DNA of 64,000 nt from NCBI RefSeq assembly GCF_001563285.1, contig NZ_CP005188.1:1989501-2053500 (forward strand), written 5' to 3'. Each line of letters starts with the position of its first letter. The stretch's first letter is position 1. Made by a program: the position numbers and the translations under genes. Positions 1,575 through 40,612 of the stretch are shown here, in pieces. The notes beneath the pieces are model-generated. The model ran no database searches and was not told the origin of the DNA. It was given only the letters and a program-made list of their open reading frames with translations. Source of the stretch: Sphingobium sp. MI1205 (GTDB lineage Bacteria; Pseudomonadota; Alphaproteobacteria; Sphingomonadales; Sphingomonadaceae).

Positions 1575-1590
1575 CCCGGAAAGGATAATC

Positions 1591-4034: not shown

Positions 4035-4175
4035 GGCCGCCTACGCTGCTCCCTGTATTTCTTCGCTAGACTACGACGGCCACATTTACTTGTTGAACTG
4101 ATCTCTTTTCTGTCTCTCTTGATGTGCCCCTGAGACCGGGCGGCGGTTCGTCCGGCTCAAATCAGGGGCCGTTTC

Positions 4176-5518: not shown

Positions 5519-5799
5519 TGGAAGCCCCATCGGATTTTGGTTCGCCGACCGCCGGCTTCACCGCGCCGGTGCATCGCGCGCTGACCGAGCCGATCCTGCT
5601 GGGCGGCGCCCCGCGCAGCCTCGCGATCCTGAACGGCACGCTGGCCGGCGCGCTCGGCCTCGGCCTGCGCCTCTGGATCGCCGGCCTGGTCCTATGGGCG
5701 GTCGGCCACGCGGTCGGTGTGTGGGCGGCGCGGCGCGATCCGCAGTTCGTGGACGTGGCGCGCCGCCACCTCCGCTACCCGACCAGGCTCCGGGTGTGA
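5518..5799 (+). CDS. trbD: Conjugal transfer protein TrbD (VirB3 family)
   Basis: Small inner-membrane component of the mating channel, 93 residues, with one or two hydrophobic segments ('LAILNGTLAGALGLGLRLWI', 'AGLVLWAVGHAVGVWAA'). The ATG at 5518 overlaps the trbC stop by one base, which decides the start against a longer open frame beginning at 5296 inside trbC. Position between trbC and trbE and the size agree with TrbD. Confidence 0.9.
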   Translation: MEAPSDFGSPTAGFTAPVHRALTEPILLGGAPRSLAILNGTLAGALGLGLRLWIAGLVLWAVGHAVGVWAARRDPQFVDVARRHLRYPTRLRV

Positions 5800-5809
5800 G
5801 GGCGGCCCG

Positions 5810-8991: not shown

Positions 8992-8999
8992 GCTCGGCC

Positions 9000-9254
9000 A
9001 TGTCGCGCACCGCGAAAATTGGCGGCGTCGCCGCGCTCGCCGGCATGATGATGGCGGTCGTGGTCGCCGGGGTCGTGACGCGCGAGCGGCCGGCTCAGGT
9101 GGCGACACCCGTTCAACAGACGGCGGCTGTGCCCGAGGCGCTGGCGCGCGAGCTGGACCGCTGCGCCACGCTCACCATGCCCGACGCGGGATGCGAGGCG
9201 GCGTGGGCCGCCAATCGCCGTCGCTTCTTCGGCGAGGAAGGCGCCCGGCCATGA
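9000..9254 (+). CDS. trbK: Putative entry-exclusion protein TrbK-alt
   Basis: Protein of 84 residues with an N-terminal membrane anchor ('VAALAGMMMAVVVAGVV') and a short periplasmic part with two Cys ('LDRCATLTMPDAGCEAAW') followed by 'RRRFFGEEG'. Its place between trbJ and trbL and its build match the TrbK-alt family, thought to limit entry of a second copy of the same element. The exclusion role is known only from relatives. It lacks an obvious lipobox Cys, unlike classical TrbK. It overlaps trbL by four bases. Confidence 0.8.
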   Translation: MSRTAKIGGVAALAGMMMAVVVAGVVTRERPAQVATPVQQTAAVPEALARELDRCATLTMPDAGCEAAWAANRRRFFGEEGARP

Positions 9255-10552: not shown

Positions 10553-10558
10553 CCGCTT

Positions 10559-11251
10559 ATGTTCCGACGCCCCTCCATCCGCTACGGGCAGACGCCCGAG
10601 CCCGAGACGCCCTACCAGCGTGCCGCCCAGGTCTGGGATGACCGCATCGGCTCCGCGCGCGTGCAGGCGAAGAACTGGCGGCTTGCCTGCCTGGCCTCGC
10701 TGGCTTTGTCGGGCGGACTCGCCGCCGGCCTTGTATGGGAGTCCGCGCGCGGCTCGATCGTGCCGTGGGTGGTGCAGGTCGATCGGCTCGGCCAGGCGCA
10801 GGCGGTCGCGCCCGCCGACTACGGCTACCGCCCGACCGATCCCGAAATCGCCTTCCACCTCGCGCGCTTCATCGAGGAGGTGCGCGGGATCGCCGCCGAC
10901 GGAATCGTGGTCCGCCAGAACTGGCTTCGCGCCTACGACTTCACCACCGACAAGGGCGCGGTCGCGCTCAACGATTATGCGCGCTCGAACGACCCGTTCG
11001 CCAATATCGGCAAGGTCCAGGTCGCGGTGGACATCTCCAGCGTGATCCGCGCCTCGCCCGACAGCTTCCGCGTCGCATGGACCGAGCGGCGCTACCAGGA
11101 CGGCAACCTTGCCGCGACCGAACGCTGGTCGGCGATCCTGACGATCGTGATCCAGACACCCGCCACCCCCGATGCGCTCCGCAAGAATCCGCTCGGGATC
11201 TACGTCAACGCCATCAACTGGTCGAAGGAGCTGTCCGATGACGCATCCTGA
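10559..11251 (+). CDS. trbF: Conjugal transfer protein TrbF (VirB8 family)
   Basis: Bitopic inner-membrane assembly factor of 230 residues with a cytoplasmic N-terminus 'MFRRPSIRYGQTPEPETPYQ', one membrane segment near residues 40-60 ('LASLALSGGLAAGLVW'), and a periplasmic VirB8-like domain. It follows trbL by six bases and overlaps trbG by 14 bases. Confidence 0.93.
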   Translation: MFRRPSIRYGQTPEPETPYQRAAQVWDDRIGSARVQAKNWRLACLASLALSGGLAAGLVWESARGSIVPWVVQVDRLGQAQAVAPADYGYRPTDPEIAFHLARFIEEVRGIAADGIVVRQNWLRAYDFTTDKGAVALNDYARSNDPFANIGKVQVAVDISSVIRASPDSFRVAWTERRYQDGNLAATERWSAILTIVIQTPATPDALRKNPLGIYVNAINWSKELSDDAS

Positions 11252-12257
11252 CGCACGCCGGGCCGCGCTGCCGGTCCTGCTGCTTTCCGCCTCCGCGCTC
11301 GCCGGCTGCGCCACTGCCGGCGCCAAGCCGCCCGCCATCGCCTATGACGATGCCGTGCCCGCCGTTCAGGCAGTCCCTGCGCCCGAACCGGCCAAGCCGG
11401 TCGAGGTGGTGGCGATCCCGCAGCCGCTGCCCCTGCCGGGGCAGTTGAAGCCGGTGAGGGCTGCGCCGCGCGTGCCCGAGGCGGCTGATCCGAAGGAGCG
11501 CGTCGGCCTCGCCAATGCTGCGGCCCGCGTGCAGCCGGTCAAGGACGGCTTCCTCAACGCCATCCAGCAATATCCCTACGCCGATGGCGCGCTCTATCAG
11601 GTCTATACCGCGCCCGGCGAGGTGACGGATATCGCGCTGGAGGAGGGCGAGGAACTCGCAGGCTCCGGGCCGGTCGCGGCCGGCGATACGGTGCGCTGGG
11701 TCATCGGCGACACGACAAGCGGATCGGGCGCGACGAAGCGCGTCCATATCCTCGTGAAGCCCACCCGGCCCGAGCTGACCACGAACCTCGTCATCAACAC
11801 CGCCCGGCGCACCTATCACCTCGAACTGCGCGCCACGGCCGCGACCTATATGGCGTCGGTCTCGTGGACCTATCCGCAGGATAGCCTGATCGCGCTCCGT
11901 CGCCAGAACGCCGAGGCGAGCGCGGCGGCGCCGATCGCATCGGGGCTGGACATAGCCGCGCTCAATTTCCGCTACGCGATCGACGGTGACAATGCGCCGT
12001 GGAAGCCGCTGCGCGCGTTCGACGACGGCCGCCAGGTGTTCATCGAGTTTCCGGCCGGTATCGCGCAGGGCGAGATGCCGCCGCTGTTCGTGGTCGGGCC
12101 GGCCGGTGGCGGCGAGCTGGTCAACTACCGTGTCCAGGGCCGGTACATGGTGGTGGACCGGCTGTTTGGCGCGGCCGAACTGCGCATGGGCGACAAGAAG
12201 TCTCAGCAGAAGGTGCGCGTCACCCGCACCGATGGCACGCGCCGGGGCCGGTCATGA
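11238..12257 (+). CDS. trbG: Conjugal transfer outer-membrane protein TrbG (VirB9 family)
   Basis: Core-complex protein of 339 residues. The N-terminus is a lipoprotein-like signal ending 'LSASALAGCAT' (lipobox LAGC), followed by a Pro-rich linker and a VirB9/CagX beta domain in the C-terminal two thirds. The start at 11238 overlaps trbF and the end overlaps trbI by four bases. Function follows from VirB9 relatives. Confidence 0.93.
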   Translation: MTHPDARRAALPVLLLSASALAGCATAGAKPPAIAYDDAVPAVQAVPAPEPAKPVEVVAIPQPLPLPGQLKPVRAAPRVPEAADPKERVGLANAAARVQPVKDGFLNAIQQYPYADGALYQVYTAPGEVTDIALEEGEELAGSGPVAAGDTVRWVIGDTTSGSGATKRVHILVKPTRPELTTNLVINTARRTYHLELRATAATYMASVSWTYPQDSLIALRRQNAEASAAAPIASGLDIAALNFRYAIDGDNAPWKPLRAFDDGRQVFIEFPAGIAQGEMPPLFVVGPAGGGELVNYRVQGRYMVVDRLFGAAELRMGDKKSQQKVRVTRTDGTRRGRS

Positions 12258-13501
12258 GCGGGTCCGAACAGGAATCGGCCGCGCCGACCAGCATGGCGGC
12301 GACCGCCGCACCCCAATCCCCATCGGATGCGCAAGCGTTCCGTCTGCGTGGAAGCCCGCCGCGTGTGATGCGGCTGTCGCGCAAGGCGCTGGCGGCGGTC
12401 GGTGTCGTCGCGGGCCTCGGCATCGGCGGCTCGCTGATCTATGCGCTGCGCCCGGCCGGCCAGCACCAGGCGAAGGAGCTATACAGCACCGACAACCGGC
12501 CGACCGCCGATGTCATCAGCGCCGCACCCAAGGATTACGGTCATGTCCCGAAGCTCGGCCCGGCGCTGCCCGGCGATCTCGGGCCGCCGATCCTCTCGGC
12601 CGAGCAGCGCCGCGAGGCGGCGCTGGGAACTCCGGGCACGGCCCCGGCCGGTGCGGGCGCGCAGGCGAACGCTGCCGCCGAAGCACGCCAGCGCGTGCTT
12701 CAGGAGCGCGATGCCGCGCGCACCAGCAAGCTGTTCCTGGGCGGCGAAACGGCGCCGGGCGCCGCGCCCGCGCTCGCCATCGCGGATCAGCCCGCCGCAG
12801 CATTGCCGGCCGCCGCGCCGACCACGCAGTCCGACTACGCCAGCCCCAACGGGCAAGCCGCCAAGCGCGCCTTCATGAAGGATGATGGCGACCGCCGCGT
12901 GGTCAGCGCGGAACGGCTGTCGGCGCCGGCGTCGCCTTATGTGGTCCAAGCCGGCAGCGTGATCGCCGCCGCGCTCATCACCGGCCTCCGCTCCGACCTT
13001 CCCGGCCAGATCACGGCCCAGGTGACGCAGAACGTCTATGACAGCCCGACCGGCCGCATCCTGCTGATCCCGCAAGGGTCGAAGCTGATCGGCGCCTATG
13101 ATTCCTCGGTGTCGTTCGGGCAGAGCCGTGTGCTCCTCGCCTGGACGCGGCTGATCCTGCCCGATGGTCACTCGATCGCGCTCGAGCGCCAGCCCGGAGC
13201 CGACGCCGCAGGTTATGCCGGGCTTGAGGACAGCGTGAACAACCATTGGGGCAAGCTGTTCAAGGCTGCGCTCCTTTCGACCATGCTCAGCGTGGGCAGC
13301 GAGGCCGGCACCAGCCAGAGCGAGAACAATCTGGCGCAGGCGCTCCGGGCCGGCGCCGCCAACGGATTCAGCCAGGCCGGGCAGCAGATCGTCGAGCGCG
13401 AGCTGAATATCCAGCCGACGCTCACCATCCGGCCCGGCTTCCCGGTTCGGGTCATTGTGACGCGCGACCTGGTGCTCACCCCGGCAGGAGGCGGGCAATG
13501 A
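12254..13501 (+). CDS. trbI: Conjugal transfer protein TrbI (VirB10 family)
   Basis: Core-complex protein spanning inner and outer membrane, 415 residues. A cytoplasmic N-terminus is followed by one transmembrane segment near residues 42-62 ('ALAAVGVVAGLGIGGSLIYA') and an Ala/Pro-rich linker. The C-terminal VirB10 domain carries 'VQAGSVIAAALITGL' and 'PQGSKLIGAYDS'. It overlaps both neighbours by four bases and is the last mating-pair gene of the cluster. Confidence 0.94.
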   Translation: MSGSEQESAAPTSMAATAAPQSPSDAQAFRLRGSPPRVMRLSRKALAAVGVVAGLGIGGSLIYALRPAGQHQAKELYSTDNRPTADVISAAPKDYGHVPKLGPALPGDLGPPILSAEQRREAALGTPGTAPAGAGAQANAAAEARQRVLQERDAARTSKLFLGGETAPGAAPALAIADQPAAALPAAAPTTQSDYASPNGQAAKRAFMKDDGDRRVVSAERLSAPASPYVVQAGSVIAAALITGLRSDLPGQITAQVTQNVYDSPTGRILLIPQGSKLIGAYDSSVSFGQSRVLLAWTRLILPDGHSIALERQPGADAAGYAGLEDSVNNHWGKLFKAALLSTMLSVGSEAGTSQSENNLAQALRAGAANGFSQAGQQIVERELNIQPTLTIRPGFPVRVIVTRDLVLTPAGGGQ

Positions 13502-21825: not shown

Positions 21826-23259
21826 TCACTGTCGTACCGGCGCACCGAAATCAGGCCCGCCTCCATTGAGCGGAAAAGGCACGACACGCCCATTGACTCG
21901 AGCCGGCAGACGTTCCTCCTTTTCGGTACGTGGTGTATCTGAGTGAGGCGCCAGGAACCGCGTCAACGCCGCCTTCCGCGAGCTTCGATCGAGCGCGTAA
22001 TGAGTGTGGGACAGCACCGCCCCGTCGAGTAGCGCCTGAATGTAGCCGGACACTGTGTCAGCAGCCATCACGAGCGCTGCATCGAGCGTATGCACATAAC
22101 GGCTCGTGATCGACCCCGAGGCATGGCCGAGCAGCGCCGCAATGGTGATCTCGGTGAAGCCAAGATCGTTGGCGATGCTGGCGAAGCTGTGACGCAGCAC
22201 ATGGGCCGTGAGGTCCGCCAGTTCCGTGTCGGCGAAGATCTTCTCCCAATGCCGGGGGAAGCTGCCGAACGGTCCGTCCGGGTTCCTTCCGCCGGGAAAA
22301 ACAAAGGGGCCGTCGCCTTTCATGTCCCGCTCGTCAAAATACTCGACAATGGGCAGGCCCATAGGACGAACGGATTGGCCTTCCTTCGAGTCCTCGAACC
22401 GGAAGGCGCTCCCAACCGTGTCAATCTCCGCCTTCTTTGCCTCGATGATCTCCCCGCGTCGGCAGCCGGACATGGCGATCAGCCGGATTATATCGACCGT
22501 GCGCGTATAGCGTTCGTCCTCGGCGGCTTTGGCGAGGATGCGGCCGAGGCTTCGATATTCCTCCTCGTTCAACCGACGCTTCCGCACAGCGTCTTTCGGC
22601 TTACGGACACCATGCGCCGGATTGGCCTCAATGATGCCCAGCTCATCTCGCGCATAGGTGAAGATGCCACCAAGCAGCCCGACGGTGCGACTCGCGGCCC
22701 CGAGTCCGCCCCGGACAATCGACTTGCCGCGCAGCTTCTTCGTCTTCTCGCTGACGCGCGTCTTGCCGGCCATGATGTCCTTCATCATCACCGTCACGTC
22801 CACCTTGGTGACATGGGTAACACGCTTCTGGCCGAGCAGAGGAATGATGTGCCGGGTGATCCGGCCAAGATCGGTGATCTTGGTGCTCGCCTTCTTCGGC
22901 CGCCCGCCCTTGCCGAGAATTCGGCCGGTTTCCAGCTCCGCGATATACAGCTCGCAAAGCTCTTTCACCGAGATCGCTTTGCGGGCGCTGTTCCGATCTT
23001 CGAGCGGATCGTTGCCCTTGGCGACGTCGGCGAGCGCTTGGATCGCGAACGTCCGCGCCTGTTCGGCCGTGACCGCGCCATGCCGGCCTAGCTTCATCCG
23101 GCGCCGCACATTGTTCGCGTTACGGTAATCGACAAAGTAGGTGCGCGTGCCCGAGGGCAGCACGAACACGCCGAAGCCCTTCAGATCGCTGCACCAGACG
23201 GTATATTGCCGGTCTCTCGGCTCAGTCTTGTCGATGATGGTTTTCGTCAGCTTTGGCAT
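21826..23259 (-). CDS. P4-type tyrosine integrase
   Basis: Site-specific recombinase of 477 residues with an N-terminal DUF4102-type arm-binding domain ('MPKLTKTIIDKTEPRDRQYTV') and a C-terminal phage-integrase domain. Catalytic residues appear in order: Arg in 'MSGCRRGEI', His-x-x-Arg in 'LTAHVLRHSFAS', and Tyr in 'SITSRYVHTLDAAL'. The ATG at 23259 is preferred to the GTG two codons upstream. The gene reads away from the tRNA-Arg scar 180 bases upstream, the expected geometry for an integrase next to its attP. A close but broken copy lies at 39154-40496. It probably mobilises the conjugative element on its left. Confidence 0.92.
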   Translation of the reverse strand: MPKLTKTIIDKTEPRDRQYTVWCSDLKGFGVFVLPSGTRTYFVDYRNANNVRRRMKLGRHGAVTAEQARTFAIQALADVAKGNDPLEDRNSARKAISVKELCELYIAELETGRILGKGGRPKKASTKITDLGRITRHIIPLLGQKRVTHVTKVDVTVMMKDIMAGKTRVSEKTKKLRGKSIVRGGLGAASRTVGLLGGIFTYARDELGIIEANPAHGVRKPKDAVRKRRLNEEEYRSLGRILAKAAEDERYTRTVDIIRLIAMSGCRRGEIIEAKKAEIDTVGSAFRFEDSKEGQSVRPMGLPIVEYFDERDMKGDGPFVFPGGRNPDGPFGSFPRHWEKIFADTELADLTAHVLRHSFASIANDLGFTEITIAALLGHASGSITSRYVHTLDAALVMAADTVSGYIQALLDGAVLSHTHYALDRSSRKAALTRFLAPHSDTPRTEKEERLPARVNGRVVPFPLNGGGPDFGAPVRQ

Positions 23260-23284
23260 ACGCACCTCGCTAGAGCGGGTCCAG

Positions 23285-23305
23285 AAAACTCACCAAAAAC
23301 TCACC
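23285..23305. repeat. Tandem direct repeat upstream of the integrase
   Basis: Two copies of AAAACTCACC lie one base apart (23285-23294 and 23296-23305), between the integrase start and the tRNA scar. Such short direct repeats can be arm-type sites for integrase or excisionase. The second integrase locus has a single copy (40521-40530). Confidence 0.5.
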
Positions 23306-23380: not shown

Positions 23381-23734
23381 CTACTTATAGTGCCCTAGCG
23401 TTGGCTTGAAAAGCTTGGCGTAGCGTTGTAGTTCTAGCTCCGAAGGCAAAGGCCAGTGGTTCGAATCCACTTGGGTGCACCATTCTCGAACAAAAGAGAG
23501 AACTGCGGGCGTGGTTTTGGCCACGCCCGCTGCCGCACTCCGGGCCAGTACGGCTTTCGAGCCGGAGATGCGGATTTCCCGTTCATCGACGCGCGCCTCG
23601 CTGAGTAACAGCCGTGCATAGGCCTGCCGCAGATCGGGCTGGCCATGATGCAGCTTATCCCGCAGGAGCAGAGCTAGCTTCTCAATCCTCGCTGGCGTGA
23701 TCACAGGTTCGGCTATGGCGAGGCGACGAGTCAT
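23381..23734 (-). pseudogene. Serine recombinase C-terminal remnant reading through a tRNA scar
   Basis: The open frame of 117 codons carries the tail of a large serine recombinase ('EREIRISGSKAVLARSAAAG', then 'PAVLSFVREWCTQ'). The catalytic N-terminal domain is absent. From about 23482 downwards the frame runs antisense through the tRNA-Arg 3' half, which produces the low-meaning tail 'VDSNHWPLPSE'. Tails of this kind are common where recombinase genes end on tRNA genes. The upstream end passes into IS3 sequence. It is a scar of a second mobile element. Confidence 0.65.
23438..23482 (+). other. tRNA-Arg(CCG) 3' half, attachment-site scar
   Basis: The 45 bases from the anticodon loop to CCA fit tRNA-Arg(CCG). 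The loop CTCCGAA is at 23438-23444, the 3' anticodon strand GGCAA follows, and a 5-base variable region comes next. The T stem is AGTGG/CCACT around the loop TTCGAAT, then the acceptor strand TGGGTGC, discriminator A and encoded CCA at 23480-23482. No 5' half follows from upstream: neither TTGCC before the loop nor GCACCCA can be found. This is what remains at the far end of an element inserted in a tRNA gene. The intact tRNA should lie left of this window. Confidence 0.85.
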
Positions 23735-23739
23735 GTCGG

Positions 23740-24233
23740 ATATTTGCTCGACTATCTGGTCGCCATCATGGACTGGGCAAGCCGCAAGGTGCTGGCTTGG
23801 CAGTTATCGAACACGATGGATGCAGCCTTTTGCATTAAGGCACTGGAGGACGCGCTGGCCCGTTTCGGCAAGCCCGAGATATTCAACACCGACCAAGGCA
23901 GTCAGTTCACCAGCAACGCGTTGGCCTGACGGCCGACTACGTCCCACCGGCGTTCTGTGCGCGGCAGAGATCAAGATCAGCATGGATGGTCGGGGACGGT
24001 GGATGGACAATGTCTTCATCGAACGGCTCTGGCGGTCTGTGAAGTACGAATGCGTCTATCTGCACGCCTTCGAGACCGGATCTGAACTGCGTGCCGGTCT
24101 TGGCCGATGGTTCGCCTATTATGATCAGCATCGTCCTCATTCCCGCCTTGCGGGGAAAACCCCGGGCGAGGCATATGGGCAAATCGGCGGATCAAATCGC
24201 GGCATGAGAACAACCAGGATGAGCTTAACTTAG
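23740..24233 (+). pseudogene. IS3-family transposase OrfB fragment
   Basis: The 3' part of an IS3-type transposase, broken by a small internal deletion. The first piece (frame 23744-23929) reads 'YLVAIMDWASRKVLAWQLS' and 'FNTDQGSQFTSNA' with the second DDE Asp. A stop interrupts near 23929, and the second piece continues to 24233 with 'ISMDGRGRWMDNVFIERLWR' (Glu of DDE) and 'RPHSRLAGKTPGEAYG'. OrfA and the 5' half of OrfB are missing. Confidence 0.8.
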
Positions 24234-24651: not shown

Positions 24652-25068
24652 TCACATCGCTTCAATTGCGAAATCGAGGCGATCGGTATCGAATCCGGCG
24701 GCGCCAGGGATTGCGCGCAAATCCCGCTCTCTTAATGCGGGCCCTTGCGAGACACTGACTGTAGCTGTTCCCGATCCGTCGAGAACAATTTGGTCATCAC
24801 CCACCGTAACCACCGCGCCACGCATGGAGCCGGGCGAATAGGTCAGGTTGACCCTGTAACCTCTCGCGGCGTTGCAATATTCCTGGAGAGACCCGAGGCG
24901 ATATTCATTCGCGCCCAAAAGCGACAATCCTGGATTATGCTTTAAGCTGCATTGGAGCGGGACTGTCAGTGAGACGAGATAGCCGTTTCTCGCCACTATT
25001 GCCGCCGGGGCGGCGACTGAACCAGTCACAAGCAAAAGCGCCACAGAAGCGCGGAAAACACTCAGCAT
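24652..25068 (-). CDS. Secreted beta-rich protein next to the pilus operon
   Basis: Product of 138 residues with a signal peptide ('MLSVFRASVALLLVTGSVAA') and a mature domain with two Cys ('VPLQCSLKH', 'LQEYCNAARGY'), rich in alternating polar/hydrophobic strands. The start at 25068 is chosen because the signal peptide begins there and AGAGG precedes it; an in-frame ATG at 25122 adds 18 unlike residues. It is divergent from the chaperone-usher operon across a 319-base AT-rich promoter region. The Cys spacing and strand pattern suggest a pilin-like or carbohydrate-facing fold, but I recognise no named family. Confidence 0.6.
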   Translation of the reverse strand: MLSVFRASVALLLVTGSVAAPAAIVARNGYLVSLTVPLQCSLKHNPGLSLLGANEYRLGSLQEYCNAARGYRVNLTYSPGSMRGAVVTVGDDQIVLDGSGTATVSVSQGPALRERDLRAIPGAAGFDTDRLDFAIEAM

Positions 25069-25387
25069 AGAAGCACCATCCTCTATAGATGACACCGAAG
25101 TACTGAGATTAACCTGACGCAACGTATCCAGATAGGGTTAATATCCTCAGGCCATAACTAGCCTGATATCGATATTTTCTGAAAATCCAGCGTGACGGAG
25201 TTGAACCAGACGAAATCCGATTTTTGTTAACCTTAAGTCAAACCCCATAGATTGCCGCCCTGGGACGGCAGAATTAAGTTTGGTCCTGATTTGAGACATG
25301 ATTATAAAGTTTTCGTTTAGAATCCCCTCGACAGAATAACCAAAGCTATATATCCGACGCCCTCGTTAAGTATTTGTAAAGATATAG
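25069..25387. promoter_or_regulatory. AT-rich divergent promoter region of the pilus locus
   Basis: About 320 bases between divergent genes, clearly richer in A/T than both. It holds short inverted repeats such as TGCCG...CGGCA near 25252-25269 and alternating AT tracts ('GATATCGATATTTT'). No box can be assigned to a named regulator. The composition is typical of controlled surface-structure promoters. Confidence 0.4.
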
Positions 25388-25960
25388 ATGGGGGTTCAAA
25401 TGGGGGGTGGCTTTCAGGCCATGCGGGCGTGCGCGCTTTCGGCATGCTTCATCTTCGCCGCGCCATTTGGCGACGCCCACGCGGCGGACGCCAGCCGGGC
25501 CTCCGACAATCGCAGCGTCGAACTCAATGTTCACGGCCGGATCATGGAACAGTGCGCGATCGGCAACGCCGGGGACATGAATTTCGGCGACATCACGCGC
25601 CCCGACTTGAAGGCCAGCGCACGCGTATCTTTCAGCTGCAACGTCCCCTTCCGGGTTGACGTACGATCCGCCCACGGCGGCCTTACCAATGACAGCTTTC
25701 CCAACGGGCAAGGCCCCTATGCAGGCCGCCTGCCCTATAGCCTGGGCTTTCAGATCCCGGTGCTCAAGCCCTCAGCTTCCCTCGTCGCCCAGACGTTCAG
25801 CAGCAGTGAACTGATGGGCGGGCGCAGCTTCAACAGCGCGGGCGGCATCGCCGTGGATGGAATGGCCCTCACTGTAGCGCTCGGTCGTCCGTCGGGCGAA
25901 GCTGGACTTCTCGCAGGAAATTATTCTGAAACGATTATTATTTCCGTTTCTCCTTCATAA
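25388..25960 (+). CDS. Spore coat U-domain minor pilin
   Basis: Secreted subunit of up to 190 residues with a signal peptide ending near 'FGDAHA' and one SCPU-type domain. Family features are the early Cys and 'NFGDI' ('QCAIGNAGDMNFGDITR'), the second Cys in 'VSFSCN', and the C-terminal strand 'LAGNYSETIIISVSPS' that would serve in donor-strand exchange. The initiator could be the ATG at 25388 or Met12 ('MRACALSACF'). It is the first gene of a chaperone-usher locus arranged like the Csu archaic pili. A minor-subunit role is inferred from gene order. Confidence 0.82.
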   Translation: MGVQMGGGFQAMRACALSACFIFAAPFGDAHAADASRASDNRSVELNVHGRIMEQCAIGNAGDMNFGDITRPDLKASARVSFSCNVPFRVDVRSAHGGLTNDSFPNGQGPYAGRLPYSLGFQIPVLKPSASLVAQTFSSSELMGGRSFNSAGGIAVDGMALTVALGRPSGEAGLLAGNYSETIIISVSPS

Positions 25961-26046
25961 TTAATACAATATATAATGGTTAATGGCGTTGTCATTAATA
26001 TGATAACCTAAATATATATCAAAAATAACTGTTGGTCGCATCATTA

Positions 26047-26068
26047 ATGAAAGATTTATTTCTTTCAT
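26047..26068 (+). promoter_or_regulatory. 8-bp stem-loop in the leader of the major pilin gene
   Basis: ATGAAAGA and TCTTTCAT pair perfectly around the loop TTTATT, 49 bases before the pilin start, inside a very AT-rich 157-base spacer. No T run follows, so it is more likely a leader structure (mRNA stability or translation control) than a terminator. Confidence 0.5.
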
Positions 26069-26117
26069 ATCATTACATGTCCGGAATTTTTACCGGCATA
26101 TTTATTGGAGATAGAGA

Positions 26118-26915
26118 ATGAATAAGGCTGTTATCAAGAGCGCTTTCGCTGTTGCCCTGCTCGCCGGTTCGTCGATGGCTCTTGCCGGTCCGAGCGACAA
26201 GGTTGTTTACGGCAACACGCTGAACCTTGGCATCTTCGGCACCATCAATGCGAACATCGGAATCTCCACCAACAACGTTGGTGGCGAGCTCCTTGCAGGC
26301 CTTGCCGATGGTGTTCGCAATGGCCTCCCCGTCAACGCGAGGGGCGCTCGTTACGAACAGAGCAGCGACGTGAACGGTAACACTGAAGCTGCAACCGCAA
26401 CCCAGACCGCCAAGTTCACCCTGTCAGGCACTGTCGACAAGGACTGCTCATTCTACAGTGGTGGCCAGCAGACGCAGGCGATCAACCTGGGCACCATCGG
26501 CGTGCGCACCGGCAACAACGACAATGTGACGATCGCGTTCAACCAGAACGGTGCGATCAACGCCAACGTCAACACCTCGACGGCCGGCTGCAATACGCAG
26601 AACCAGATCACCATCACCAAGGGCAATGGCGCAAGCGGCCTGCTGAACGCTGCCGCGATCGCTTATGACACCAACCAGTTCACCAACAAGATCCCGTACA
26701 GCGTCAAGGCGACCTGGCAGGGCGTCGCGCTGGGCGCGCCGACCACCGGCACCCAGCAGACGCTGACGGCCACGACCGACGACTCGTTCAAGGCGGTGCA
26801 GGTTGGCGCATGGCGTTCGGCCTTTAACCTGGACGTCAACGCGCCGGTTCAGCCGCTCGGCCTGATCGCCGGCACCTACAGCGACACGATCACTGTCGAG
26901 CTGAAGGCTCTCTAA
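26118..26915 (+). CDS. Probable major pilin subunit of the chaperone-usher pilus
   Basis: Secreted protein of 265 residues with signal peptide 'FAVALLAGSSMALA'. The mature part is Asn/Thr/Gly rich, has a Cys pair ('VDKDCSFYSGG', 'STAGCNTQNQITI'), and ends with a strand 'GLIAGTYSDTITVELKAL' suited to donor-strand exchange. A strong ribosome site ('TTGGAGATAGAG') and the hairpin after its stop point to high expression relative to downstream genes. It is longer than usual CsuA/B subunits (about 180), with about 75 extra N-terminal residues before the pilin domain. Confidence 0.75.
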   Translation: MNKAVIKSAFAVALLAGSSMALAGPSDKVVYGNTLNLGIFGTINANIGISTNNVGGELLAGLADGVRNGLPVNARGARYEQSSDVNGNTEAATATQTAKFTLSGTVDKDCSFYSGGQQTQAINLGTIGVRTGNNDNVTIAFNQNGAINANVNTSTAGCNTQNQITITKGNGASGLLNAAAIAYDTNQFTNKIPYSVKATWQGVALGAPTTGTQQTLTATTDDSFKAVQVGAWRSAFNLDVNAPVQPLGLIAGTYSDTITVELKAL

Positions 26916-26931
26916 TCATTTAACGCGATTT

Positions 26932-26966
26932 AAAGGAGGGGGGAGCCATGACTTCCTCCTCTTTTT
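26932..26966 (+). terminator. 14-bp stem-loop with T run after the major pilin gene
   Basis: The arms AAAGGAGGGGGGAG (26932-26945) and CTTCCTCCTCTTTT (26952-26965) pair over 14 positions with three G-T wobbles around the loop CCATGA, and the 3' arm ends in a T run. It lies 17 bases after the pilin stop and about 40 before the chaperone start on the same strand. It is probably an attenuating terminator that keeps chaperone and usher levels below pilin. Confidence 0.75.
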
Positions 26967-27004
26967 CCATATGTCATGGGATATAGTCCCTGGGGGGATG
27001 TTCA

Positions 27005-27850
27005 ATGCTCGCCTTTCTGCTTCGCGCGCTACGGCCAGCCGCGAAACCTGTTCTTGCATTGTCCGCTATTGGCGCGCTGAGCTGCGCCGTTTCGCCCGCC
27101 AACGCCATGCGTGTGTCGCCCATGGTTGCAGAGATGACGACGAGCGGCACCAATGCCGTCGCGCGCATCCAGGTGCAGAACCTCAACCAGGGCCAGCTAT
27201 CTTTCGAAACGCGGATTTCCCGCATCGAATTTCAGGATGATGGCACGATCAAGGAATTTCCCGCCGATGAGGATTTCCTGGTCTTCCCGCCGCAGGGCCA
27301 ACTCGGGGCTTCGGCCCGGCAAGTCATCCGCCTGCAATGGGTCGGGCCAGCCGACATGCCTGCTTCCCGCGGCTATTATCTTTCCGTCAATCAGCTGCCG
27401 ATCCAGATGAGCGCGCAGGACGCTGGCACGCCGGGCGCCAACGTGCAGGTGGTCTATCATATGAAGGCGCTGATCACCGTCGCCCCGCCCAAGGCGGAGC
27501 CCAAGGTCGAGTCTGTTTCCATCAAGCCGATCATGGTCGAGGCGAAGGCGCCGCCGCCGATCGACGGTCAAGCCGCCCCCGCCCCCGCCCAAAAGCCAGC
27601 TTCCGTACCGGGTCTGGAGATCGTCCTGCGCAACAGCGGCAATCGCTATGCGATGATGGCCGGCGTGCGATGGGTGCTTGAAGGGAAGGACAAAGCGGGC
27701 AAGCCGCTGAAGCTGACCGTCATGCCCGACGAGATCAACCGCGAGATCGGTGTGGGCTATCTGCCGCCGCTTGGTGGCACTCGCACATTCAAACTGCCGA
27801 CTGCTGCGGAATTCGGATCGGCCCCGATCAAGATCAGCTTCGTCAACTAA
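27005..27850 (+). CDS. Periplasmic pilus chaperone (archaic FGL-type/Csu-like)
   Basis: Chaperone of 281 residues with a signal peptide ending 'SCAVSPANA' and an N-terminal immunoglobulin-like domain. It has the chaperone strand pattern 'MRVSPMVAEMTTSG' and 'LGASARQVIRLQWVG', which holds the subunit-anchoring Arg region, then 'RGYYLSVNQLPI'. A Pro/Ala/Lys-rich insert of about 30 residues near 160-200 separates the two domains, longer than in most chaperones. Its stop overlaps the usher start by one base (TAATG). Confidence 0.88.
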   Translation: MLAFLLRALRPAAKPVLALSAIGALSCAVSPANAMRVSPMVAEMTTSGTNAVARIQVQNLNQGQLSFETRISRIEFQDDGTIKEFPADEDFLVFPPQGQLGASARQVIRLQWVGPADMPASRGYYLSVNQLPIQMSAQDAGTPGANVQVVYHMKALITVAPPKAEPKVESVSIKPIMVEAKAPPPIDGQAAPAPAQKPASVPGLEIVLRNSGNRYAMMAGVRWVLEGKDKAGKPLKLTVMPDEINREIGVGYLPPLGGTRTFKLPTAAEFGSAPIKISFVN

Positions 27851-30513
27851 TGCGTCGCTCCCGCTCTGGCAGTGTCCAGCGGTTGCTGTGGCGCCTGAGT
27901 GCTTCGAGTGCACTTGTCGTTGTGCTGCCCGCGTGGGCCCAGGTGAGCGTACCCCTGCCCGGTCGCAACGGCGAACCGCGCCTGCCGAGCGCGCCCGCTA
28001 CCTTGCCTGCGCAACAACCCGCGACGTCTGGCGGAACCAGCGTGCCGCTGCCTGGCAGCTCATCTGAAACAGCGCCGTCGCCCGTGCCCATCGGCCCCCA
28101 TGGGCGCCCGGACATCAATCCTTATGACCGCGACATTGCGCTGACGGCGCCGCTGACCTATCGCGACAAGCCGCTGGGCGAAGTGCCCGTCCTACTGACT
28201 CGCGACGATCGTTTCCTGATCGATACCGCTCCGTTCCTGGACCTTATCGACACACTGCTGAACGACAAGGCAAAGGCGGACATCAAGGCCGCGCTGCAAG
28301 GTCATGAGCAGTTTGAAAATGAAGACCTGAAAGCCACTGGCGTCTCACTGCAATTTGACCCCGGTTCGCTGTCGGTCGTGGTTTTGAAGATCGATTCAGC
28401 CCATCGAGCGACCATGCCGCTGTTCGACACGCCGCGCCCCGATGATGAGAAGCCCGATGTGAAACCCGCCGGTGTTTCAGCCTATCTGAACATCGACGCT
28501 GTCGAAAGCCGGGTATGGGGCAACGTCGCCAATAGCGGATTTCGCCGCCCGTCCATTTTCATGACAGGCGCCGCACGCATGGCCGGCGTGGTGCTGGAAG
28601 CCGACGTCCAGTGGGCGGAAACATCGGGTCTTTCAGGTGGCACCGGATATCGTTTCGATCGCAACTATGCCCGCTTTGTCTACGACGAACCGGAGGATTT
28701 TCGCCGCTGGTATCTGGGCGACCTGACCCCGGAAATCCGCGGTCAGCAGGGCTATGTCCAGATGGGCGGCCTTGGCGTTTCGCGACAGCGGCAAAGGTTC
28801 GACCAGTTCCGGTCCGCGATCCTGCAAGGCAATCGTCAGTTGCTGTTGCAGCGGGACGCGACGGTCGATGTCTATCGTAACGGCACATTGCTAAAACAGT
28901 TCAACCTTCAGGCGGGCTCTTATGACCTGAGCTCGCTTCCGCTTCTATCGGGCAGCAACGACCTCCAAATTCAGGTCCGCGATACGAGCGGGCTGGTTCA
29001 GGACATCGCCTACCGATCCTATCTCGATCCGATCGATCTTCAGCCCGGGGACTATGAATATAGCGGCTATATCGGCCGGACCAGCAACCGGTTCGGGCGA
29101 ACGCCGACCTATAGCGGCCCCCTCGCCTTCTCGGGCTTTTATCGCAAGGCATTTGTCGGCAAGCCTGCGGTGGGGATCGGTCTTCAGGCCAGCAAGCGCA
29201 CGCAGGTTCTGACCGGCCAGACCCAATTCATCCTTCCCGGCGGATCGCGGCTCCAGTTCGACATGGGGGTCAGCCACACCAAGGCCTTTGGCGTCGGTTA
29301 TGCGCCCGGCGTCACATATGAGCGCATTTTCGACCGAGGAGGCCTGATCGACTCCTTCACGCTTCATGCTGGCTATATGTCGCGGCGTTTCGGCAGCCTG
29401 GGCAATGACCAACCGGACAATAGCAGCTCGATATCGGTGGACGCGCAATATACCCGTGCCATGTCGCAAAAACTGACGCTGCTCTTCAACGGGAGCTATA
29501 TCCGCAATCGCGGCTCCTTTGGCGATAATTACCGGCTCAATACGCTTGCATCATACCGGATGAACCGCAAATGGAGCGTTCGTGGAGGCGTGAACTATAC
29601 CCATTATGGCAGCGGCTTCGGGAGCGCCAACGGTATGGGATTCAACGTCTCGCTCGTGTTCGAGCCGTCCTATCGCGATCGCGCGGAAATCTCCTACGAC
29701 AAGCTGGCGTCCACAACTACGGCCAGCTACTCGCACTTGTCCGACGGCACCATCGGCAGCATCGGCTATGGGGCGCTTGCTACGCGCAGTGATGGGCAGG
29801 CAAACGGTCAGGCTTATATCGATTATATCGACAGCAAGTTCGACGCTTCGCTGATACATTCTGCCTATGGCCGGAACTTCGGCAACATCGCAGATCAGCA
29901 GGTTACATCATTGCGAGTAGGCACAGCACTCGCCTTTGCTGACGGTTCCTTCGGAGTCGGACGTCGTATAGGCGACAGCTTCGCAATTCTCACTCCGCAC
30001 AAGAGCCTTAAAGGCCACGACGTCGTCGCGGGTCAATCCATCGCCGAAAACGCCTATCTGACCCGCAGCGGACCGTTGGGCGGCGCCGTGAACAGCTATC
30101 TCAGCTCTTACGTCACTCAGTCCGTGCAATATGACGTCGAAAATCCGCCTCCTGGCTATGACGTCGGTTCGGGCGTCTTCCGCGTGCGCCCCCCTTATCG
30201 CGGCGGCTATGCGATGGAAGTCGGAACGGATGCCTTCGCAAGCGCCATGGGCACAATGCTTTACGCCGACGGCAAACCTGTGTCGCTCATGGGCGGAAAG
30301 GTCGTGCCGGTTGATCGCAATAATGGTGAACCGCTTCCGTTTTTCACCAACTCGGTCGGCCGTTTCGCAATCCAGAATCTTCGGCCCGGGGCTTCCTACC
30401 GGATCACTCTGGTGAATTCGACGTCCAGCCTGTTCTTCACAGTGCCAAAGGATACCAAAGGCCTGGTCGATTTGAAGACCGTCACGGTCACGGATGAGGG
30501 AGTGAACAAATGA
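27850..30513 (+). CDS. Outer-membrane pilus usher
   Basis: Usher of 887 residues that forms the outer-membrane pore and assembly platform for the pilus. A signal peptide precedes a Pro-rich linker, and an N-terminal domain ('VPVLLTRDDRFLIDTAPFLD') follows. The central beta barrel includes 'GTGYRFDRNYARFVYDEPED' and a plug-region 'RNGTLLKQFNLQAGSYDLSS'. The C-terminal domains include 'NGEPLPFFTNSVGRFAIQNL'. Length and order are normal for FimD/CsuD-type ushers. Coupled to the chaperone (1-base overlap) and to the next gene (4-base overlap). Confidence 0.92.
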   Translation: MRRSRSGSVQRLLWRLSASSALVVVLPAWAQVSVPLPGRNGEPRLPSAPATLPAQQPATSGGTSVPLPGSSSETAPSPVPIGPHGRPDINPYDRDIALTAPLTYRDKPLGEVPVLLTRDDRFLIDTAPFLDLIDTLLNDKAKADIKAALQGHEQFENEDLKATGVSLQFDPGSLSVVVLKIDSAHRATMPLFDTPRPDDEKPDVKPAGVSAYLNIDAVESRVWGNVANSGFRRPSIFMTGAARMAGVVLEADVQWAETSGLSGGTGYRFDRNYARFVYDEPEDFRRWYLGDLTPEIRGQQGYVQMGGLGVSRQRQRFDQFRSAILQGNRQLLLQRDATVDVYRNGTLLKQFNLQAGSYDLSSLPLLSGSNDLQIQVRDTSGLVQDIAYRSYLDPIDLQPGDYEYSGYIGRTSNRFGRTPTYSGPLAFSGFYRKAFVGKPAVGIGLQASKRTQVLTGQTQFILPGGSRLQFDMGVSHTKAFGVGYAPGVTYERIFDRGGLIDSFTLHAGYMSRRFGSLGNDQPDNSSSISVDAQYTRAMSQKLTLLFNGSYIRNRGSFGDNYRLNTLASYRMNRKWSVRGGVNYTHYGSGFGSANGMGFNVSLVFEPSYRDRAEISYDKLASTTTASYSHLSDGTIGSIGYGALATRSDGQANGQAYIDYIDSKFDASLIHSAYGRNFGNIADQQVTSLRVGTALAFADGSFGVGRRIGDSFAILTPHKSLKGHDVVAGQSIAENAYLTRSGPLGGAVNSYLSSYVTQSVQYDVENPPPGYDVGSGVFRVRPPYRGGYAMEVGTDAFASAMGTMLYADGKPVSLMGGKVVPVDRNNGEPLPFFTNSVGRFAIQNLRPGASYRITLVNSTSSLFFTVPKDTKGLVDLKTVTVTDEGVNK

Positions 30514-31403
30514 CCAAGGCCGTCTTGACTACATTGTTGCTGGGGTCTGCACTCACCACCCCAGCTTTGGCAAAGCCCGACGACACCTGCCGACTGCGCA
30601 TAGACGCGACGCAGGGGCAATGGATCATCAACGGTTATGACGCCTTTTCCAACAGTCCCGCCACAGCCAGCTTTGATCTTACCTTCATAAACTCCGGCGA
30701 AGGGGCATGCCGCTTCCTGCCTATTTTCCAGACAGATGGCAGCCCATTTGGTCTTTCCTCCGGTAATGGCGATTCATTGCCATATAGCCTGTTCGATCTT
30801 TATGGCGGCTATGATGCGACGCCGGTCGGGGGACGAACATTACGCACGGCCAACCATCGCCGCGTGGAAATCGCACCTCGCGCACAGCAGATCGTCCGCT
30901 ATACGCTTACAGTCGGCGGCTCCCCGACTGCCGATGGACTGTTCAAACAGCGCCTCGCCATCATCGCCGAGGATGATAACGGCTCATCGCTCGCCGAGCG
31001 GTCCGTGAACGTGGGCATTCACATCCTTCCTTCGGCGACCTTGGGACTGGCCGGCGCCTTCCAGCGCCACAATGGACAGGCAGATATCGATCTGGGCGAA
31101 CTCCAGACCGGCATTGCGGCAGTCCCGTTGGCTCTCTATGTGCAGAGCACCCGTGGCTATTCTCTGGCTTTCAAGTCACTTAACGCAGGTAATCTCAGAC
31201 TCGCGGGTCAGGAATGGACTATACCCTATCGGTTGATCGTTGACGGTAAATTGCTCGATTTGAGCGCCGAGAGCATCTATTCCAAACGGGCGAGCAGCAT
31301 GCGGCGGGACAGTTTGCCAATGGCGTTTCAAATTGGCGACGTCACCAATAAGCGAGCAGGAACCTATTCCGATCTTGTCACAGTTACCGTGTCCGTGGAC
31401 TAG
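30510..31403 (+). CDS. Two-domain pilus tip subunit (CsuE-like)
   Basis: Secreted protein of 297 residues, signal peptide 'LLLGSALTTPALA'. An N-terminal domain with Cys ('DTCRLRIDATQGQWIINGYD', 'GEGACRFLP') is followed by a second domain ending 'RAGTYSDLVTVTVSVD', the usual donor-strand-accepting pilin end. Two domains and last position in the operon fit the tip adhesin of archaic pili such as CsuE. Binding specificity is unknown. Confidence 0.75.
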   Translation: MTKAVLTTLLLGSALTTPALAKPDDTCRLRIDATQGQWIINGYDAFSNSPATASFDLTFINSGEGACRFLPIFQTDGSPFGLSSGNGDSLPYSLFDLYGGYDATPVGGRTLRTANHRRVEIAPRAQQIVRYTLTVGGSPTADGLFKQRLAIIAEDDNGSSLAERSVNVGIHILPSATLGLAGAFQRHNGQADIDLGELQTGIAAVPLALYVQSTRGYSLAFKSLNAGNLRLAGQEWTIPYRLIVDGKLLDLSAESIYSKRASSMRRDSLPMAFQIGDVTNKRAGTYSDLVTVTVSVD

Positions 31404-31607
31404 ATTTTTCTCCATCGCATGAGCGGCGAGTGGCGTGCGCACATGTGGTCGCCTGCCGCGAGATCGCACCGGCCGCCGAGATGCTGATCGCATCGCGTGA
31501 TAGGGGCGCTTCGCCGCATGACGGCTCCAAGCCCCTAGCAAACTGGTGAAAAGGACAGCCTGATGGGCTAGCCCTGCGTCATCTGCTGGGTGTAGGTGAA
31601 AACGGCG

Positions 31608-32330
31608 ATGTCGATAAGCGCAATCCTTGAACCATCTGACGACTCCCAGAACAAGCGCGGCACATCTCGACTACGCATCCGCGTGCAGACGGCGGGGGAA
31701 CTTGAGCAAGGTCAGCAGGCCGATGTCACGATCCACAATATTTCAGCTTCCGGCATCCTTATAGAGACTCGATCCGTGTTGGCGGTTGGGCAAATTATCA
31801 GAATAGAGCTACCCGAGAGCGATCCCGTTTTCTCAACCGTTGTCTGGGAAAGCTCGCCGATTTTTGGATGTCGATTTCATAATCGCCTGTCCCAAGCCGT
31901 GCTTAGCGCCGTGCAATTACGCAATCCCTTGCCGCCAGAATTCGATCCGGTCTGTTCGCCCCGAGTTCCCTCAGATGAGGAACCCTTGGCAGCCCGAATT
32001 TTGCGCCTTCGTCATGCTAGAGGGCTCAGCCGAACCGAGTTGGCGGCGGTAACCGGCCTCAGCAAGCCAAGCATTTGGTCGTGGGAGACCGGAAAATCTA
32101 AACCAAGGCATAGCAATATAGTTCTGCTGGCAAATGCCCTAGAGGTTTCTGTAAAGGACTTACTGAAAAAAGATATAATCCAACGCATACAGCCTATGGT
32201 CGAAGATGATGACCATCCTACCGATTTCCATCGACAAGACATTTCTGATATAATTGAACAGTCTAAGAATAGTATATCTGAGTTTACCGGAGTTAATAAG
32301 GAAAATATCAAGATAATAATCGAATATTAA
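31608..32330 (+). CDS. PilZ - XRE fusion, putative c-di-GMP-responsive regulator
   Basis: Protein of 240 residues with two recognisable parts. Residues 20-100 form a PilZ domain with both ligand motifs, RxxxR ('RLRIR', 21-25) and NxSxxG ('NISASG', 44-49), which in PilZ proteins bind cyclic di-GMP. Residues 117-175 form an XRE/Cro helix-turn-helix ('LSRTELAAVTGLSKPSIWSWETGK'). The tail is acidic and Asn/Ile rich. An in-frame GTG at 31596 is an alternative start. The gene lies 200 bases after the pilus operon on the same strand. Binding of c-di-GMP and control of the pilus promoter are inferences. The tail and following DNA are unusually AT rich. Confidence 0.85.
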   Translation: MSISAILEPSDDSQNKRGTSRLRIRVQTAGELEQGQQADVTIHNISASGILIETRSVLAVGQIIRIELPESDPVFSTVVWESSPIFGCRFHNRLSQAVLSAVQLRNPLPPEFDPVCSPRVPSDEEPLAARILRLRHARGLSRTELAAVTGLSKPSIWSWETGKSKPRHSNIVLLANALEVSVKDLLKKDIIQRIQPMVEDDDHPTDFHRQDISDIIEQSKNSISEFTGVNKENIKIIIEY

Positions 32331-32436: not shown

Positions 32437-32985
32437 GGCACTGTCAAAGGAAGTGCACCGAATGTTTGAGAGTCAGGGGAGATCGGACGGATGCCATCGG
32501 CCCAGCGGCTCTACCAACCCGTTCTGCTATTTCAACTGATCGCCGGAGATCATCCGGCTGGCAGTGATGATCTATGTGCGGTTTTCGCTCAGCCTGCGGA
32601 ATGTCGAGAACCTGCTATCTTCGAACGCGGCATCAAGATTAGTCATGAGACCACCCGCTACTGATGGAACAGCTTCGGCCTTCCCGCGATGTCCGCCGAC
32701 AGCGGATCAGCCGCATGCGAGGGTCCCGGCTGGTGGGGGCACCTTGAAGAAATGTACGTCAAAGTAAATGGCGAGATGTTTTACCTATGGCGCGCTGTCG
32801 ATCAGGAAGGGAAAAATCCTGGAGAGCTATGTCACGAAAACCCGCGACAAAGCTGCCGCCCTGACCTTCATGAAGAAGGCGATGAAGCGCCGGATCCCCG
32901 GAAGCGACCACCGCTGACGGGCTGCAGCTATGGTGCTGCAATGGGCGAGCTTGGCAACCGGGCATCCGATTCATCGGATCGATGA
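32437..32985 (+). pseudogene. IS6-family transposase remnant
   Basis: A left-end-like sequence 'GGCACTGTCAAAGG' at 32437-32450 is followed by IS6-type transposase text split over several frames. 'PEIIRLAVMIYVRFSLSLR' lies at about 32546-32602, 'IKISHETTRYWWNSFG' at about 32632-32679 and 'EMYVKVNGEMFYLWRAVD' at about 32749-32803. 'KAMKRR' and 'YGAAMGELGN' come near 32880-32960. At least three frameshifts are needed, so it is dead. The right end is cut by IS5-type sequence. Confidence 0.8.
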
Positions 32986-39153: not shown

Positions 39154-40496
39154 TCAGGCCGCCAGCCTATTGGATTCGTCGGGCGCGGGTGCATCCGGTT
39201 TGTGCGTCAGAAACCGGACCAGCGCGGCCTTCCGCGAGCTGCGATCGAGCGCATAGTGGGTATGAGACAGGACGGCTCCGTCGAGCAGCGCCTGAACGTA
39301 GTCCGACACCGTGTCGGCGGCCATGACGACGGCCGCATCGAGCATATGCACATAGCGGCTCGTGATCGAGCCCGACGCATGACCGAGCAGCGCCGCGATG
39401 TGATTTCGGTGGAGCCCAGGTCATTCGCGAAGCTGTGGCGCAGCACATGCGCGGTGAGGTCCGCCAACTCAGTCCCGGCGAAGATCTTCTCCCAATGCCT
39501 GGGGAAGCTGCCGAACGGCCCGTCTGTGTTCCTTTCACCCGGAAAGAGATATGAGTTGCGGCCAGTCATGTCACGCTCATCGAAATATTCGACGGCGGGC
39601 AAGCCCATCGGACGAACGGACCGATCTTCCTTCGTGCCCTCTAACCGAAAGGTGCTCCCAACGGTGTCGATCTCGCTCTTCCGTATCTCGATGATCTCAT
39701 TGCGGCGGCAGCCGGACATGGCGATCAGCCGGATGATATCCACGGCGCGCGTGTAGTGTTCGTCCTCAATCGCTTTGGCGAGGATGCGGCCAAGCGTCCG
39801 ATACTCGTCCTGGTTCAGACGACGCTTCCGCACAACGCTCTTGGGCTGGCGGACCCCGTGGGCGGGATTGATCTCGATGATGCCCAGCTCATCCCGTGCA
39901 TAGCTGAAGATGCCGCCCAGCAGGCCGACCGTGCGGCTCGCGGCCGCGAGGCCACCCCGGACAATCGATTTGCCGCGCAGCTTCTTCGTCTTTTCGTTGG
40001 CGCGCGTCTTACCCGCCATGATGTCCTTCATCATCGCCGTCACGTCCGCCTTGGTGACGTGGGTTACGCGCTTTGAGCCGAGCAGCGGAATGATATGGCG
40101 GTAATCCGGCCAAGATCGGTGATCTTGCTTCTTGAAGCGGCCGCCCTTGCCGAGAATACGGCCGGCCTCCAGCTCCGCCATATACAGCTCGCACAGCTCC
40201 TTGACCGATATCGCCTTACGAGCGCTGTTCCGACCTTCGTGCGGATCATTGCCCTTGGCGACATCGGCCAGCGCTTGGATCGCCAGCGTCCGCGCCTGTT
40301 CGGTGGTGACTGTGCCGCGGCGGCCGAGCTTCATTCGACCCCGGACATTGTTGGCGTTGCGGTAATGGACGAAATAGGTTCGCGTGCCGGAGGGCAGCAC
40401 GAACACGCCAAAGCCCTTCAGATCGCTGCACCAAACGGTACATTGCCGGTCGCGCGGATCGGCTTTGTCAACGACGGTCTTCGTTAGTTTTGGCAT
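39154..40496 (-). pseudogene. Degenerate second P4-type integrase
   Basis: A close relative of the integrase at 21826-23259, alike over nearly the full length, but broken. Near 40110-40130 a compensated frameshift replaces 'KKASTKITDLGRITRHIIP' by an unlike stretch. Around 39420-39430 three codons are missing ('RHSFASIAND' becomes 'RHSFAND'). Near 39400 one G is missing from the codons for 'TEITIAALL', so the catalytic Tyr region falls out of frame. The in-frame tail continues at 39154-39351 ('YVQALLDGAVLSHTHYALDR'). The main open frame is 39207-40502. Confidence 0.85.
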
Positions 40497-40502
40497 ATGC
40501 AC

Positions 40503-40612
40503 CTGCTAGAGCGGGTCCAGAAAACTCACCAGTAGAGCGAAAACGGTGGGGTGTTTTTTGCGTAGTCTGGAACACCCAAACTTTCAATAAAACTCTGTAA
40601 AAACAGATGTTT
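40503..40612. other. Upstream flank homologous to the first integrase locus
   Basis: This stretch matches the region upstream of the first integrase ('GCTAGAGCGGGTCCAG', one AAAACTCACC at 40521-40530, 'GTGGGGTGTTTTTTGCGTAG') and diverges near 40607. No tRNA half is found here, so the island border seems to run directly into the Kup remnant. Confidence 0.55.

Follow-up and report, generated by a model that had tools for sequence, protein, structure and literature searches.

A PilZ-XRE protein as a candidate c-di-GMP-responsive regulator of archaic-type chaperone-usher pili in sphingomonads

We analysed a 64-kb stretch of DNA from Sphingobium sp. MI1205 (hereafter the window, whose positions are used throughout), in which a chaperone-usher pilus operon is followed by a gene encoding a PilZ domain fused to an XRE-type DNA-binding domain. 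Genes for such proteins, here called PilZ-XRE, are linked to pilus clusters in other genera of the Sphingomonadaceae far more often than chance would allow. Position and motifs give good support to the view that several lineages of the family use PilZ-XRE as a local pilus regulator of the cyclic di-GMP (c-di-GMP) type. For the window copy this role is plausible, the main rival being a passenger origin of the gene. Taken as a whole, we find it somewhat probable that in several lineages, and probably in that of the window too, PilZ-XRE is a local c-di-GMP-responsive regulator of an archaic-type chaperone-usher pilus. According to the mechanism we propose, binding of c-di-GMP to the N-terminal PilZ barrel would change how tightly the C-terminal XRE domain binds repeats that precede the pilus operon; in most members, the protein would also act at repeats upstream of its own gene. 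The window copy, which lies downstream on the same strand, would be expressed together with the pilus operon and still control it. We infer that PilZ-XRE binds c-di-GMP and DNA and that it is the binder of the repeat described below; the sign of the regulation is likewise an inference.

Linkage of PilZ-XRE genes to pilus operons

Among 397 genomes of the family, 72 encode a two-domain PilZ-XRE, 60 a full-length usher and 23 both. The resulting two-by-two table (23, 49, 37 and 288 genomes) departs from independence when relatedness is left uncontrolled (Fisher exact test, p = 4e-5). In 12 of the 397 genomes, PilZ-XRE and a full-length usher gene are no more than 10 kb apart (actual distances 1.1–3.1 kb), where random placement is expected to produce 0.235 such pairs. 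The 12 genomes, window included, span six genera (5, 3, 1, 1, 1 and 1 genomes), and the same 12 were recovered with a profile query. These figures concern the 83 of 114 PilZ-XRE rows that were kept, the other 31 being dropped for poor span of both domains (one of them, G472:C24, covers part of both), and, out of 108 genomes with an usher match, 68 usher rows in 60 genomes, after removal of partial matches with E values of 8e-31 or weaker. The original prediction invited the question of whether the fusion and these pili co-occur in sphingomonads. The answer is affirmative for recurrent linkage across the family and negative within the window's own genus, where a single copy out of 16 is linked.

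The arrangement differs between loci. In 9 of the 11 linked loci other than the window, PilZ-XRE is upstream of the pilus operon and divergent from it; at L117 and L118 it is downstream. Five of 19 named PilZ-XRE loci carry a complete divergent pilus operon: a Porphyrobacter metagenome-assembled genome and Croceibacterium, both already among the 12, and three additional Sphingopyxis. At another of the 19, in Sphingopyxis terrae, the pilus operon is cut by the contig end. On plasmid Lpl of Novosphingobium PP1Y, PilZ-XRE precedes a pilus operon on the same strand, and for a second plasmid match, in Novosphingobium RL4, no usher was matched within 9 kb. Matches to PilZ-XRE in a sample of 385 Alphaproteobacteria were found only inside the family, and the plasmids searched contained no near DNA match of the window locus.

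We placed the linked copies in a tree of 65 PilZ-XRE members. Its closest branch to the window copy, as sister, is that of Sphingobium faniae (support 100/99). Together with the linked copies of L113–L117 and 15 other copies of its genus it forms a supported group of 21 (96/94), with the linked copy of L119 just outside (91/59). The linked copies of L118 and L120–L122 fall together with three unlinked members in another group (99/84); that of L123 sits on a long branch. As linked members fall in different groups of the tree, the linkage covers separate parts of the PilZ-XRE family. Two further sequences, L146 and the second copy of L148, are among the 67 members of the promoter count but not among the 65 used for the tree and the motif counts.

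The protein and its candidate operators

The original prediction described an intact PilZ-XRE fusion with both ligand motifs, and this was borne out by Pfam and by a motif check. The gene and its end were correctly placed; the start probably was not, since the alignment of relatives favours the ATG at 31608 over the GTG at 31596. The regulator (31608..32330, plus strand, 240 amino acids) was thus delimited with Pfam, the alignment of its start, an AlphaFold model and fold matches. It consists of an N-terminal PilZ barrel, an XRE helix-turn-helix (HTH) and a conserved C-terminal tail. Both domains exceed their curated Pfam cut-offs, which we applied to all window proteins (PilZ PF07238, 32.8 bits against 22.5; HTH_3 PF01381, 41.1 against 23), and both folds are present in the model (pLDDT 77). 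In fold and sequence, the XRE part resembles the SinR, DdrO and P22 c2 repressors, which are not known to have a PilZ domain. The motifs RxxxR and [DN]xSxxG are both present in the window protein and both kept in 60 of 65 members; a loose pattern finds the tail in all 65. An artefact of where HMMER matches end accounts for an apparent split of the family into tail-bearing and tail-less members. Four proteins (G194:C1:1298679, G373:C11:32948, G527:C7:8392 and G440:C1:3349647) match the profile only over its XRE and tail portion, and their genomes also carry PilZ-XRE.

A direct repeat, TAAC-N7-[TAC]AAC, precedes 41 of 67 PilZ-XRE genes; of 832 further upstream regions taken from these loci, 3 contain it. 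In its strict form, TAAC-N7-TAAC, it precedes 24 PilZ-XRE genes and is found in one control region. At spacings of 5, 6, 8, 9 or 10 nucleotides, at most 2 of the 67 promoters have it. Because the pattern was read off these very promoters, the weight rests on the spacing comparison and on the control rather than on the count. The form varies by clade, being mostly CTAAC-N6-TTAACC, and TTAAC-N6-GAAACC in the window's genus. The repeat is rare in five whole genomes that we searched, where sites away from PilZ-XRE look mostly like chance. Its presence upstream of PilZ-XRE genes fits autoregulation.

We scanned the window with a matrix built from PilZ-XRE promoters. The best match in the whole window is a candidate operator in the pilus promoter region, TGTTAACCTTAAGTCAAACCCC (25225..25246, plus strand), inside the region named in the original prediction, with a score of 15.2 against 11.7 for the next (p = 0.017 against shuffles, for a matrix trained without linked loci). 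It has one mismatch to TAAC-N7-[ACT]AAC; over the window, matches with one mismatch are about as frequent as chance predicts (36 against 30.4). A second, weaker candidate, TTACAAATACTTAAC (25365..25379, minus strand), also with one mismatch, lies just before the first pilin gene. In the pilus operon of S. faniae (locus L048), the best matrix match is not at the place corresponding to the first candidate; it is at that of the second (p = 0.106), and this site is kept. Neither pilus region (25069-25387 and 25961-26117) has an exact repeat match, and the latter has no significant matrix match (p = 0.71). We regard the operator evidence at the window's pilus promoter as suggestive only. No plus-strand terminator-like site was found between the tip gene and PilZ-XRE, which leaves read-through from the pilus genes possible. 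Window-wide scans for consensus promoters (6 against 4.3 expected) and terminator-like sites (8 against 6.9) were at chance.

The repeat also occurs elsewhere. CTAAC-N6-TTAAC stands just upstream of genes for similar-looking proteins of 320 amino acids, lacking a Pfam match, in two genera (L163 514-1476 and L164 510-1478), possibly a second target of the regulator. In all, three non-pilus proteins whose genes are preceded by the repeat gave no Pfam match.

Alternative explanations

Several results weigh against local pilus control by PilZ-XRE. The 12 linked genomes are not independent, since five belong to one genus and three to another. Of the 72 genomes with a two-domain PilZ-XRE, 49 have no full-length usher, and the majority of PilZ-XRE genes lie away from pili; the family may therefore have its main function elsewhere. 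Two linked members have altered PilZ motifs: in PP1Y a K replaces D/N in the second motif, and the protein of L115 lacks RxxxR. The evidence for operators is also uneven. We tested 24 regions, 23 at pilus genes and one at the window PilZ-XRE. Five reach p < 0.05 with the matrix, and 19, L048 included, show no significant match; several of the regions are closely related to one another. The only exact repeat match in the window (55484-55498) is away from the pilus genes, and a terminator-like site (25252-25271) separates the candidate operator from the first pilin gene. Finally, the repeat is direct with an 11-bp spacing, and XRE proteins usually bind inverted repeats.

Other unfavourable points concern the window copy, and most of them also speak for a passenger origin. 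Under this explanation, a rearrangement by mobile elements put PilZ-XRE behind the operon, and the protein acts elsewhere or hardly at all. The DNA homology between the window and L048 (79% over 6.2 kb) stops exactly at the stop codon of the tip gene. The S. faniae operon, whose usher is 90% identical, has no linked PilZ-XRE; the PilZ-XRE of that genome (G072), 57% identical to the window's, is on another contig. Insertion sequence and integrase sequences surround the window gene, with apparent transposase fragments flanking the pilus locus: an open reading frame with a DDE_Tnp_IS240 match (32689-32985) on one side and an open reading frame with an rve (integrase core) match (23697-24233) on the other. 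Two related integrase genes lie farther out (21826-23265, the one scanned with Pfam, and 39207-40502). They share stretches of 213–300 bp at 81–86% identity, and identical 27-bp repeats adjoin their starts (23269-23295 and 40505-40531). The 17.2-kb stretch between these repeats, which holds the pilus locus, is possibly an integrative island. The GC content of the window PilZ-XRE is 0.49, against 0.57–0.63 for the pilus genes (0.50 against 0.64–0.80 at third codon positions). Its own operator appears to have decayed: at 31566..31587 (plus strand), where the S. faniae sister gene has TTAACCTTGCGTAAACC, the region gives a best matrix score of only 1.6. We speak of decay because of this comparison with the sister gene.

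The genus as a whole points the same way. It has 16 PilZ-XRE copies in 15 genomes, of which only the window copy is pilus-linked. The 15 other loci (L033–L047), including a paralogue in the window's own genome, have no pilus genes within about 10 kb per side, one flank being shorter at L036, L042 and L047 (8.5, 8.7 and 1.2 kb). In this sample of 94 genomes, three of which the PilZ-XRE search apparently missed, eight of the nine genomes with a full-length usher are among the 15 carriers; in a tenth, G061, the usher match is only partial. We rejected this co-occurrence as support, since both traits fall in one clade of the gyrB tree of 30 chosen genomes (in which the row of G048 was probably read in the wrong frame). 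An independent-pairs test on that tree had too few pairs.

Against a passenger origin stand three results. The linkage recurs in five other genera. The open reading frame and both PilZ motifs are intact, and silent changes are enriched between the window and S. faniae copies (pN 0.26, pS 0.77, with silent sites saturated). The best operator-like match of the window sits in the pilus promoter. We regard a passenger origin as unlikely, although it is the strongest of the alternatives.

A second possibility is that the TTAA-type repeats are bound by CtrA rather than by PilZ-XRE, pili and PilZ-XRE merely sharing the regulon and timing of CtrA. The CtrA consensus is given as TTAA-N7-TTAA in the account we draw on (PMC9437464), with the same spacing as the PilZ-XRE repeat. 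This motif precedes the first pilus gene in L115, L123, L208 and L213, and TTAA-N7-TTAAC has 10 matches in the window genome (including two overlapping pairs) against 3 for the reversed control. However, the form of the repeat in the window's genus, TTAAC-N6-GAAACC, is not a CtrA site, and a full TTAA-N7-TTAA site is absent from the whole window, pilus promoter included. Moreover, in four genomes CTAAC-N6-TTAAC occurs three to five times each, close to the count for its reversed control, and one of these sites is always at PilZ-XRE. Control by CtrA seems rather improbable to us, though it may apply at some pilus promoters of related loci. Least probable of all is that the PilZ domain serves dimerisation or protein contact and that the pili are regulated without c-di-GMP sensing: the altered motifs of PP1Y and L115 would fit this, but both motifs are kept in nearly all members and a PAS-GGDEF-EAL gene flanks three linked loci.

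Pilus exchange, known systems and the window locus

At one pair of these three loci, the pilus operon was exchanged beside a constant regulator and promoter. Over a 6.2-kb stretch that begins within the first pilin gene and runs across the promoter to PilZ-XRE and beyond, L120 and L121 are 94.5% identical in DNA; on the other flank, 5.0 kb through the PAS-GGDEF-EAL gene are 95.7% identical. Between the flanks the pilus genes differ (usher 34% identical), except in one 159-bp patch of 85% identity. The flanks of L122 are the same (84–88%), and the operon that they enclose is another one, with an usher 47% and 34% identical to those of the other two; its PilZ-XRE is about 71% identical. The PAS-GGDEF-EAL gene lies at the far end of the linked operons (L120 3001-5193, L121 2736-5450 and L122 10439-12661). 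Its domains were scanned in L120, where the PilZ match was below the cut-off, and the counterparts in L121 and L122 are 91–99% identical to it. Because the flanks are constant and the operon variable, PilZ-XRE and the promoter it faces, in some genomes with the far-side GGDEF-EAL gene, may form a c-di-GMP control cassette that is portable among sphingomonads, the module keeping its place in the chromosome while the operon behind it is exchanged. We put this forward tentatively, as a reading with somewhat less than even chances. If it holds, surface adhesins change and the second-messenger switch stays. Different pilus operons also lie behind the same annotated TonB-receptor/PepSY pair on the Novosphingobium plasmids Lpl (L231) and pLA5 (L232), according to annotation and tblastn; Lpl has PilZ-XRE there and pLA5 does not.

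The transcription factor BldD of Streptomyces combines an XRE-type DNA-binding domain with another C-terminal domain that binds c-di-GMP, and is not known to have a PilZ domain. Its control by c-di-GMP has been reported (PMC4151990). The closest precedent for pilus control by PilZ-XRE is MrkH of Klebsiella pneumoniae, described as a c-di-GMP-dependent PilZ activator of chaperone-usher fimbriae (PMC3161979). The logic is similar, with the difference that MrkH acts on type 3 and not on archaic-type fimbriae. In its treatment of MrkH, a 2025 review (PMC12564702) lists it as the c-di-GMP transcription factor with a PilZ domain, contrasts its novel DNA-binding domain with canonical HTH regulators, and points to PilZ fusions with poorly defined domains as a subject for research. 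Because PilZ-XRE carries an HTH, it does not share this domain plan. Compared with MrkH by description only, the window protein lacks the family's trait of a non-HTH DNA-binding part. The original prediction called a c-di-GMP pilus switch uncommon logic; it is uncommon and, given MrkH, not unprecedented. PlzA of Borrelia burgdorferi is another PilZ-type protein reported to bind nucleic acid, but it has tandem PilZ-type domains without an HTH, and no pilus operon is mentioned in the account we draw on (PMC10333796). Among the titles and abstract openings that searches of an open-access library listed, none dealt with a PilZ-XRE fusion or with chaperone-usher pili of sphingomonads. Few c-di-GMP-dependent transcription factors are known in print. 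Because the linkage recurs, direct switching of these pili by c-di-GMP can be put to the test, and a PilZ-HTH family with recurrent pilus linkage, a defined repeat and a natural pilus-swap locus would offer a compact, testable c-di-GMP-to-adhesin switch.

The five pilus genes of the window (25388-31403) were found where, and in the order in which, they had been predicted, all on the plus strand. They encode an SCPU-type minor pilin of 190 amino acids (25388..25960, 82% identical to its L048 counterpart), a long and probably major pilin of 265 amino acids (26118..26915, 71%), a periplasmic chaperone (27005..27850, 89%), an outer membrane usher (27850..30513, 90%) and a two-domain tip protein of 297 amino acids (30510..31403, 85%). 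That set was incomplete, as a sixth gene belongs to the locus: it encodes a divergent small pilus-associated protein of 156 amino acids (24652..25122, minus strand), without a Pfam match above cut-off, that is 71% identical in the S. faniae operon; most of the linked loci in other genera carry a homologue of it 3' of the tip gene. All six thus have counterparts in L048 at 71–90% identity. The usher is well above its Pfam cut-off (PF00577, 38.6 bits against 27.1). The chaperone is just under (PapD_N, 21.5 against 23), with position and homology in agreement. The SCPU matches of the minor pilin (E = 0.001) and of the C-terminal part of the tip protein (E = 0.0043) are also under the cut-off (19.9 and 17.8 bits against 22.4). 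The long pilin has no Pfam match and was recognised through homology and its position in related operons. Against solved structures, the chaperone had no sequence match and the usher profile a single short one.

The gene order, pilins-chaperone-usher-tip, is shared with related operons and is that of Csu-type pili. We compared the locus with one of Acinetobacter baumannii that we take to be Csu. There, three open reading frames precede a chaperone-sized one, the usher and a tip-sized one; in the window, two pilins precede the chaperone. The window also differs by its extra small gene and by low identity, only the usher being matched (21.7% over 807 columns, E = 7e-13). 'Archaic' or 'Csu-type' seems a fair label, with the chaperone and SCPU matches just short of their cut-offs.

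Two minor observations remain. In three genomes of the window's genus in which PilZ-XRE is not pilus-linked, a LuxR-type regulator is divergent from another type of pilus operon (L049 13783-14409, where the GerE domain was scanned, L050 5500-6090 and L051 13792-14385). In the window, positions 66-13501 hold genes that resemble a conjugative transfer module.

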